NCBI RefSeq assembly: GCF_030160455.1
Contig: NZ_BSOJ01000017.1
Span: forward strand, 1-37,656
DNA length: 37,656 bases
Reading direction: 5' to 3'
DNA from: Limnobacter litoralis
GTDB lineage: Bacteria > Pseudomonadota > Gammaproteobacteria > Burkholderiales > Burkholderiaceae_B
A model generated the notes under the pieces. That model made no database searches and was not told the origin of the DNA. It saw only the letters and a list, made by a program, of their open reading frames with translations. Positions 30,665 through 32,369 of this stretch are shown here, piece after piece. The translations under genes and the position numbers were made by a program. The stretch's first letter is position 1. Each line of letters starts with the position of its first letter.

Positions 30665-30690
30665 TTGAATGCTTAGCCCCGGTCATTCAA
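30665..30690. terminator. Possible hairpin terminator between flgL and merR
   Basis: TTGAATG (30665-30671) pairs with CATTCAA (30684-30690) across a 12-nt loop. It lies between the convergent ends of flgL and merR and overlaps the merR stop codon. There is no clear T-run, so this is tentative. Confidence 0.35.
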
Positions 30691-31090
30691 TGTTCACCAG
30701 AGCCTCAATAATCGGGCAACCGGTCGAATCGTCGCTTTCATTGCAACGTGTTACAAGCTGCAGCAAGGTGGTTTGCATTTTTTGCAGATCGCGAATGCGT
30801 GCTTCAATGGATTGAAGTTTGATCTGTGCCACCGTCCGGGTTTCCCGGCAAGCACTGGCACCGCTCAATGCCAGCAAGTCGGCCACCTCGGACAGGGTAA
30901 AACCGAGGGCTTGGGCACGCTTGATGAAATGAATCCGTTTCAAGTCGTTTTCGCTGTACCTGCGTGCACCCTGCACTGGTTTGTCAGGTTTTGCCAATAT
31001 GCCCACACGCTGGTAGTAGCGAATCGTTTCTATGTTCACGCCTGCTGCCCGGGCCAAACCACCTATGGTCAATGTGTGTTTGTGATTCAT
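30683..31090 (-). CDS. merR: Mercury-responsive regulator MerR
   Basis: MerR represses, and with Hg(II) activates, the mer promoter by untwisting its long spacer. The 135-aa product has the winged helix-turn-helix (TIGGLARAAGVNIETIRYYQRVG) and a long dimerisation helix. The three Hg-binding cysteines are C81, C116 and C125, matching C82, C117 and C126 of Tn501 MerR. This points to mercury rather than zinc, copper or redox sensing. It is divergent from merT, with a mer-type operator in the 69-bp gap. Confidence 0.9.
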   Translation of the reverse strand: MNHKHTLTIGGLARAAGVNIETIRYYQRVGILAKPDKPVQGARRYSENDLKRIHFIKRAQALGFTLSEVADLLALSGASACRETRTVAQIKLQSIEARIRDLQKMQTTLLQLVTRCNESDDSTGCPIIEALVNIE

Positions 31091-31159: not shown

Positions 31160-31474
31160 ATGAAATCTGTTCAAAATACCGGCACCCTGATCGGCAGTGC
31201 GCTTGCTGCATTCGCTGCTTCCATTTGTTGCCTTGGCCCGCTCTTGTTGCTTGCAGTAGGTGTGGGCGGAAGTTCCTCGCTGAGCATTTTCGCGGCACTG
31301 GAACCTTATCGGCCCGCCTTTATCGTCATTACGCTCGGCTTGCTGGCGTTTGCTTATTACCGCATGTTCAAGCTCAGGTCTGATTGTGAGGCATGCAGCA
31401 AAGGCCAGAAAATGGCATTCTGGGGGATCGCCTTGCTTGCGCTGGTGATGCTTGCTACACCATGGTTTGTTTGA
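31160..31474 (+). CDS. merT: Mercuric ion membrane transporter MerT
   Basis: MerT brings Hg(II) across the inner membrane. The 104-aa product has three hydrophobic segments (about 8-33, 48-68, 84-103). The vicinal pair C23-C24 lies in SICCLGP of helix 1, and a cytoplasmic pair C76/C79 (CEAC) lies between helices 2 and 3, both typical MerT ligands. It is slightly shorter than Tn501 MerT (116 aa). No merP, merA or merB follows, so Hg(II) taken up here has no reductase in the cluster. Confidence 0.87.
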   Translation: MKSVQNTGTLIGSALAAFAASICCLGPLLLLAVGVGGSSSLSIFAALEPYRPAFIVITLGLLAFAYYRMFKLRSDCEACSKGQKMAFWGIALLALVMLATPWFV

Positions 31475-31493: not shown

Positions 31494-31703
31494 ATGAACA
31501 ACCTTATACTTGAATCGGTGCTGACGTGCCCGAATTGTGGTACAGCCACCGCTTGTAGTATGCCCACTGACGCATGTCAGTTTTTCTTCCAGTGCCCAGG
31601 CTGTAATGCCATGATCAAGCCCAAACCAGGCGATTGCTGTGTTTTTTGCTCGTATGGTTCGGTGAAATGTCCGCCCATTCAGCAAGACAGTTCCTGCTGC
31701 TAA
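31494..31703 (+). CDS. GDCCVxC-domain small cysteine-rich protein
   Basis: This 69-aa protein carries the block GDCCVFCSYGSVKCPP (46-61), the signature of the GDCCVxC (seleno)protein family often found beside merT. It has 12 cysteines, including three CxxC pairs (12/15, 34/37, 49/52) and a terminal CC. All are Cys here, with no in-frame TGA. The start at 31494 follows AGGAG. No signal peptide is seen, so it is probably cytoplasmic. Role in metal or Hg(II) handling is inferred from family context; no activity is established from sequence. Confidence 0.85.
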   Translation: MNNLILESVLTCPNCGTATACSMPTDACQFFFQCPGCNAMIKPKPGDCCVFCSYGSVKCPPIQQDSSCC

Positions 31704-31709
31704 TCCAGA

Positions 31710-31731
31710 ACCGGGCCCAGGCGGACCCGGT
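31710..31731. terminator. Possible bidirectional terminator after the mer module
   Basis: ACCGGG (31710-31715) pairs with CCCGGT (31726-31731), with an inner CC/GG extension. It sits between the convergent GDCCVxC gene and the cysteine-peptide gene. The following bases are not strongly T-rich. Confidence 0.4.
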
Positions 31732-31742
31732 CATTTAGTGAG

Positions 31743-31826
31743 TTATGAGCAGAGTGGGCAGGCTGCCATGGCAACGCTGACCAAGCCAAATAAACCAACT
31801 GCGGCTGCAAACAGCTTCACTTTCAT
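31743..31826 (-). CDS. Tiny Sec-targeted cysteine peptide (27 aa, ends ACPLCS)
   Basis: This 27-codon frame is preceded by an excellent AAGGAGAT ribosome binding site and a start ATG at 31826. It has a basic N-terminus (MKVK), a hydrophobic core (LFAAAVGLFGLVSVA) and a signal-peptidase-like AMA-A site, then only CPLCS before TAA. It would give either a six-residue periplasmic peptide with a CxxC pair, or, if uncleaved, a membrane anchor with a periplasmic CxxC. A MerR-type operator lies upstream and a MerR-family gene precedes it on the same strand. I know no family for it; it may be a metal or thiol ligand. Confidence 0.6.
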   Translation of the reverse strand: MKVKLFAAAVGLFGLVSVAMAACPLCS

Positions 31827-31868
31827 AAACGATCTCCTTCAAAGTATCGGGGAATATTCCCGCCTGTT

Positions 31869-31899
31869 ATGTTGAGCATTCCAGTGACTGGAATGTCAA
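31869..31899 (-). promoter_or_regulatory. MerR-type operator/promoter of the cysteine-peptide gene
   Basis: On the minus strand TTGACA (31899-31894) is followed by a 19-bp spacer and CAACAT (31874-31869, 3/6). A perfect 19-bp dyad, CATTCCAGT-N-ACTGGAATG (31877-31895), fills the spacer. This is the layout of promoters controlled by MerR-family regulators. The -35 overlaps the stop codon of the MerR-family gene upstream. Confidence 0.65.
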
Positions 31900-32369
31900 T
31901 CATTCTTTGATTCACCATCGGACAAAGGCAAGATATAGTCTGCGATCAGGAACTCGCCATGGGGTTCGTTTGGCGCATTATCAAATCGCGAAGCAATCGC
32001 TGCATTGTTACTGCGAATCTCAAGCAGTCTTTCTTCGAGATTCTTAAGGCCGTGCTGAAGTTCTCGCACCTCCTTGAGCTTGCGTTTCAACAACTCATCG
32101 ACCTTGCCTCGCGCTCCGCATCCACAGGAGGGGCCTTGATCATAATGTTCAAGTATGGACTGGATTTCCTTGATTGAAAAATCCAGTTCGCGGGCCTTCT
32201 TGACAAAATCCAGCCTGGACAAATCTTCTTGCCTGAACACGCGATTTTTGCCCTTGCTAAACCATGAACCAGAATCTGCGCGCTTCGGGGTTATCAATCC
32301 CTGATCCTCGTAAAACCGGATGGTTTTGGGGGTTAAGCCCAGTTGTTTGGCAACATCACTGATTTTCAT
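31896..32369 (-). CDS. MerR-family transcriptional regulator of unknown ligand
   Basis: This 157-aa MerR-family protein has a helix-turn-helix MKISDVAKQLGLTPKTIRFYE, a basic wing region (about 34-48), and a long dimerisation helix. A CxC pair (C82, C84 in PSCGCGARGKVDE) sits where MerR and ZntR place their first metal ligand. The downstream ligands of ZntR, CueR or mercury MerR are absent, and a ~35-residue acidic tail is unusual. It lies 17 bp after the response-regulator gene and directly precedes the operator and cysteine peptide, its most likely target. Inducer unknown. Confidence 0.87.
   Translation of the reverse strand: MKISDVAKQLGLTPKTIRFYEDQGLITPKRADSGSWFSKGKNRVFRQEDLSRLDFVKKARELDFSIKEIQSILEHYDQGPSCGCGARGKVDELLKRKLKEVRELQHGLKNLEERLLEIRSNNAAIASRFDNAPNEPHGEFLIADYILPLSDGESKND

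Follow-up and report, generated by a model that had tools for sequence, protein, structure and literature searches.

A predicted regulatory unit of a MerR-family protein and a 27-residue CPLC micropeptide in Limnobacter

The window analyzed here, a stretch of 37,656 nucleotides from Limnobacter litoralis (contig NZ_BSOJ01000017.1), carries on its minus strand a gene for a MerR-family regulator (MerR2; 31896-32369), a promoter, an ORF of 27 amino acids (31743-31826) and a hairpin, in that order, and on its plus strand two genes that converge on this set. One of these (31494-31703) encodes a 69-residue GDCCVxC-domain protein (NF041374, 98.9 bits versus a cut-off of 40), and the other (31160-31474) a MerT-like membrane protein of 104 residues that passes the Pfam threshold (PF02411, 73.6 bits versus 32.9) and falls below the NCBIfam cut-off for MerT. 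Divergent from the MerT-like gene, on the minus strand, is merR1 (30683-31090), which encodes a mercury-type MerR (TIGR02051, 157.8 bits versus 150.85). An earlier note on this DNA had spoken of a mercury module; MerR1, the low-scoring MerT-like protein and the GDCCVxC protein bear out part of that description, but the locus falls short of a mer operon, which would combine merT, merP and merA under MerR, as no merA or merP frame was seen beside MerR1 and the MerT-like gene when the ORF list of the window was inspected by eye. Elsewhere in the same genome, on contig C15 (approximately 197560-202004), is another cluster in which both MerA and MerT exceed their cut-offs, accompanied by two MerR-family matches; no other contig of this genome has MerA above the cut-off.

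MerR2 has the architecture of its superfamily, an N-terminal winged helix-turn-helix followed by a long dimer helix. It matches the Pfam families MerR_1 (E = 1.2e-18) and MerR-DNA-bind (E = 5.8e-13), and a structure model of moderate quality (mean pLDDT 73.4, pTM 0.53) places a helix at residues 84-130. As the earlier note had stated, the gene lies directly upstream of the small frame and encodes a CxC pair (C82-G-C84). The protein fails every named metal-sensor cut-off among the NCBIfam equivalogs, scoring 66.8 versus 151.45 for CadR-PbrR, 64.2 versus 150.85 for MerR, 59.6 versus 147.4 for CueR and 53.3 versus 167.95 for ZntR. C82 and C84, the latter aligning with the cysteine in the CGS of CadR, are the sole cysteines in the intact MerR2 copies of the genus; the cysteine pair of the C-terminal metal loop is absent from these copies in the alignment. 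Many of the nearest relatives outside the genus have cysteines at 111 and 119 that MerR2 lacks, suggesting that it may not sense a metal. The C-terminal tail of the protein is conserved in the genus, with GEFLIADYI(L/I)P invariant across the eight intact copies aligned.

The promoter directly behind merR2 comprises a -35 element, TTGACA (31894-31899, minus strand), a perfect 19-bp dyad, CATTCCAGTCACTGGAATG (31877-31895), and, assuming a 19-bp spacer, a -10-like hexamer, CAACAT (31869-31874, minus strand). A dyad operator within an over-long promoter spacer of 19-20 bp is typical of the MerR superfamily, and this layout is found here; the individual elements had been correctly noted, but the dyad does not lie wholly inside the spacer, as had been claimed, and takes in the final two bases of the -35 element. 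The perfect 19-bp symmetry is peculiar to the window, whereas all nine copies of the locus detected in the genus (see below) keep TTGAC(A/C)TTCCAGT-NNN-TGGAA, together with a -10-like CANNNT that was scored by a script with the spacer fixed at 19 bp. Searched without mismatch, the operator pattern TTGACNTTCCAGTNNNTGGAA, with its core TTCCAGT-NNN-TGGAA, occurs at nine sites in the 16 Limnobacter genomes, every one of them a peptide locus. This retention supports the original interpretation of the dyad as a MerR-type operator, and we propose it as the operator of MerR2.

Five weaker matches to the operator were also inspected. Three fall inside a single type of ORF, presumably encoding a single-strand-binding protein. 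A fourth, the near-match L049, lies 62 bp ahead of an ORF that, from its motif, we take to be a copper P-type ATPase, which hints that the operator could be of copper type. The fifth (L041), a site with two mismatches in the genome of the window (contig C27, 85462-85482), lies between two larger ORFs and under a mechanically called ORF of 105 residues; it is possibly another MerR-type promoter. Two further elements flank the small ORF. At the predicted transcript start is a second small dyad, GGGAATATTCCC (31850-31861), in which the GGG and TTCCC columns are invariant in all nine copies; it forms a 4-bp 5' hairpin in five of nine leader-only folds, and may guard the short mRNA as a 5' stem or serve as a second binding site. 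A strong hairpin (31710-31731) separates the peptide gene from the convergent GDCCVxC gene; it is probably a shared terminator, although its T-run is weak in the window; a strong hairpin follows the stop codon in all nine copies.

The small ORF itself (minus strand; MKVKLFAAAVGLFGLVSVAMAACPLCS) is preceded, as the earlier note had recognized, by a strong ribosome binding site, AAGGAGA (31833-31839), of which AGGAG is present in every copy (promoter-to-ORF gap at the peptide loci, ~52). Its product matches no Pfam or NCBIfam family. A profile of the peptide searched over 268 genomes of the family, 16 of them Limnobacter, recovered these nine at E < 1e-15, all in Limnobacter. Across the alignment K2, K4, A19, A21, C23, P24, L25 and C26 are invariant, and residue 22 varies (A, V or E). 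Variable sites in the gene are distributed 7/4/19 over codon positions 1/2/3, and the window copy differs from the other eight with pS of 0.60-0.93 and pN of 0.07-0.14. Four copies associated with transposon-type genes differ among themselves by zero to two nonsynonymous and no synonymous changes; being nearly identical, they add little and are uninformative on selection among themselves. The predominance of synonymous change between copies indicates that selection acts on the protein and that the peptide is translated; judged by this pattern, the ORF is a real gene encoding a peptide.

Regulator, operator, ribosome binding site and peptide occur together at nine loci in seven of the 16 Limnobacter genomes, with MerR2 adjacent to the peptide gene every time, including one instance in which MerR2 is frameshifted (G001, contig C6). 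This co-occurrence supports the claim that regulator and peptide form a pair, and by the conserved gene arrangement MerR2 and the peptide are a unit. Conservation of the peptide or the dyad in relatives was one of two points on which the earlier note had staked its case, and it was found at these loci; the underlying observation is thus confirmed, and the reading built on it is, as a whole, partly supported.

The pair appears to be confined to the genus. Among 60 relatives, MerR2 at 70-78% identity was found only in G001, G005, G007 (twice), G011, G012 and G013, all of the same genus, with a further broken copy in G001; some MerR2 match was obtained in 45 of the 60, and the remaining matches are distant MerR proteins. 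Behind each of the 70-78% copies, and behind the broken one, are the same promoter and peptide, which with the window gives the nine copies in seven genomes. Outside Limnobacter, nothing credible was found for the peptide in 399 genomes of the order and 268 of the family at E up to 0.01, the two weak matches (E = 0.002 and 0.008) both lying inside long frames, nor was it found in 369 genomes of the class at E up to 1e-4; these samples overlap and are incomplete. Searches of plasmids at E up to 1 did not yield the peptide, and the 1437 plasmid records matching MerR2 are all below 60% identity; neither protein was confirmed in viral contigs. An alignment scan for MerR2 over one genome per species (84,980 species), which depends on exact matches to short peptide patterns and can overlook some relatives, gave 137 relatives, of which 80 were kept: seven loci from Limnobacter and 73 distant ones. 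The CxC pair is present in the six intact genus copies among these and in one other locus (L117), there at 106/108. A rule-based scan for small ORFs found the peptide in the seven genus loci and, in the other 73, a single unrelated ORF (L107, with two starts). We found no description of the peptide or of the MerR2-peptide pair in the open-licence literature.

Among the companion genes, the peptide tracks GDCCVxC better than MerT or MerA. GDCCVxC is present in all seven genomes with the peptide and in one of the nine others (G004), or 8 of 16 in total; MerT is present in six of the seven, with no match in G012, and among the others in G004 and G014; and MerA exceeds its cut-off in three of the seven, plus G014. 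In G007 the only MerT match is a classical, high-scoring one. Because the genomes are related and the loci linked, these counts are not independent. GDCCVxC, on which we found no papers in the open-licence literature, is the convergent neighbor in five copies (the window, L034, L035, L036 and L039), lies 1.9 kb away in L037 and L038, and is not nearby in the second copies of G007 and G001 (L032 and L033). The latter two, together with the absence of a MerT match from G012, indicate that no neighbor is an obligatory partner.

The surroundings of the pair differ between copies. Loci L034-L036 are flanked by a radical SAM and DsbA-like gene pair and by a CDF transporter gene, with RND-type efflux genes (named by eye) farther along in L034 and L036; the gene order of L039 differs from these. 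In G004 the corresponding site contains a DsbA-like gene, GDCCVxC, the MerT-like gene, merR1 and the CDF gene but is missing the MerR2-peptide block, which in G007 spans approximately 775 bp within flanks about 97.5% identical to those in G004. In L032, L033, L037 and L038 the pair lies directly behind three genes. In L037 (178-5425), the sole set scanned, the first has a weak rve match, the second an AAA domain plus a sub-threshold TniB match, and the third no matches; the genes ahead of MerR2 in these four loci probably represent a Tn7/Tn5053-like element. The window copy has flagellar genes, named by eye, on one side and two-component genes on the other. A two-component partner was considered and rejected, since such genes are adjacent to the window copy alone among the nine mapped neighborhoods, barring two frames 0.5-1.9 kb downstream in L032 that by eye resemble a response regulator and a kinase. 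Likewise set aside was a radical SAM/RiPP role prompted by the B12-type radical SAM and DsbA-like genes that precede L034-L036: radical SAM is present in 14 of the 16 genus genomes, whether or not they have the peptide.

MerR proteins activate stretched promoters through DNA distortion. We favor, with roughly even confidence for and against, a self-contained two-gene stress cassette in which MerR2 drives a membrane CPLC peptide in response to a thiol-seeking stress. MerR2 would sit on the promoter with the stretched 19-bp spacer just behind its own gene and would likely sense its signal at C82-x-C84, where the long dimer helix begins; we infer that the inducer is a thiol-seeking signal, either a soft metal ion or an electrophile, read through the CxC. 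On meeting it, MerR2 would distort the promoter and give rise to one short transcript. The resulting peptide, for which we assume Sec export and topology from knowledge of such families, would insert in the inner membrane N-in/C-out, as expected from the positive-inside rule, and present CPLC(A/S) at the periplasmic face; trimming by signal peptidase after A21 may or may not occur. The cysteine pair would most likely bind or pass on a toxic ion, or exchange disulfides, acting beside a putative membrane partner or in the same response as the GDCCVxC protein. A bolder form of this explanation, which we advance tentatively and consider rather less likely to be right than wrong, is that MerR2 has this one membrane-inserted CPLC micropeptide as its whole regulon. 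The peptide would be a metal or thiol relay reduced to the minimum, with one helix and two cysteines in place of a folded chaperone, and the cassette would move intact between Tn7/Tn5053-like transposons and a metal-resistance island.

The peptide sequence also has the features of a Sec/signal peptidase I substrate, with a charged n-region, a hydrophobic h-region (residues 5-20, mean hydropathy 2.32) and A-x-A, and may be cleaved, in agreement with the Sec-like signal followed by a CPLC tail that had been described at the outset. An alternative, consistent with the invariance of A19, A21 and CPLC while residue 22 varies, is a free hexapeptide, (A/V/E)CPLC(A/S), that would be released by cleavage after A-x-A and serve, within the periplasm or beyond it, as a very small thiol chelator or metallophore. 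No export or modification gene accompanies all copies, however, radical SAM being part of the genus core. Signal peptides usually drift in sequence, and we therefore compared the N-termini of secreted candidates between the window genome and G007. The first 21 residues of the peptide are 86% and 81% identical to those of the two G007 copies, whereas seven strict control pairs average 41% (maximum 67%). A looser set of 33 pairs, drawn from 1015 reciprocal ORF pairs, has a median of 40%, with five pairs of at least 81% that look by eye like cytosolic enzymes; the loosest set of 59 has nine pairs at that level, which inspection by eye assigned to enzymes, internal starts or membrane anchors. The control is small and rule-based, without a signal-peptide predictor, and the pairs of at least 81% in the looser sets were set aside by eye. 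The anchor-like N-termini in the loosest set, two short hydrophobic ones at 0.81 and 0.86 and one at 0.97, are as conserved as the peptide, as would fit a membrane role. Since its signal part is conserved equally with its tail, unlike the strict controls, the comparison modestly favors a role in the membrane over simple export of the hexapeptide, an outcome that we regard as unlikely. Of the two fates initially offered for the product, a mature form of about six residues or a membrane-anchored CxxC, the free form is possible, and helix conservation leans toward the second.

Two further alternatives to the membrane peptide fare worse. Seven of the nine copies have LAAC or MAAC at the junction, as would a lipoprotein with a lipid-anchored CPLC pentapeptide, but MAVC in G012 and LAEC in the second G007 copy break the lipobox with A-x-A intact; we rejected assignment to the lipoprotein class, which calls for a conserved lipobox, and consider this reading quite improbable. 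More doubtful still is a regulatory leader or nascent-chain sensor, or a small RNA with an incidental ORF. The short transcript, the conserved leader dyad and the strong 3' hairpin would suit it, and there is a precedent in CutF of Rhodobacter capsulatus, an exported copper sensor that carries a periplasmic motif for binding copper, takes part in metal homeostasis and controls translation of the downstream cutO (PMC9973294). In contrast to CutF, no conserved same-strand gene follows the peptide in the mapped neighborhoods, a strong hairpin stands behind every stop codon, and synonymous sites vary freely. Finally, a frame of 27 residues is by itself ordinary, since many short frames occur (31500-32200 is overlapped by 20 ORFs of 20 amino acids or more), but a chance ORF with no product is scarcely credible: all nine copies are conserved, change between them is mostly synonymous, and every one has the operator and ribosome binding site.

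The membrane CPLC peptide can be compared with several known systems. MerP, acting with MerT, offers a periplasmic cysteine pair beside a MerT-type protein; the pair is shared, but our peptide has no folded domain, and its persistence in G012, where MerT has no match, weakens the idea of a miniature MerP for MerT. MgrB-type regulatory peptides of the membrane are small single-helix proteins whose two cysteines face the periplasm; by description the helix and cysteines are shared, but no sensor kinase accompanies the cassette. Bufferins are peptides that chelate excess copper and are modified by MNIO enzymes (PMC12452194). No MNIO enzyme was noticed among the scanned neighbor genes of the cassette.

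The nearest precedent is CadR-zrd of Pseudomonas aeruginosa PAO1, in which a MerR-family site between convergent genes exposed an unannotated small CxxC protein that is induced by Cd and Zn through CadR (PMC12301328). Zrd is described as a pair of zinc-ribbon sites (CXXC-N10-CXXC), the section on it makes no mention of a signal peptide, and CadR controls cadA as well (PMC12301328). The MerR-type site between convergent genes and the small CxxC product are alike in the two systems; here, the product is instead one hydrophobic helix with CPLC, and there is just one matching operator for the regulator. If our explanation is correct, the pair would represent a very small effector gene, so short that most annotation would miss it, with a one-component sensor dedicated to it, and would illustrate how little protein suffices to deal with a toxic ion at the membrane. 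With one promoter and one product, it is a readily testable system, and MerR-type operators that lack an annotated target could, as for CadR-zrd, be a route to other hidden small genes.

At the locus with the frameshifted MerR2 (L033; G001, C6:52635-53262), operator and peptide are intact. G001 contains a second, intact cassette, which might serve the frameshifted copy in trans.
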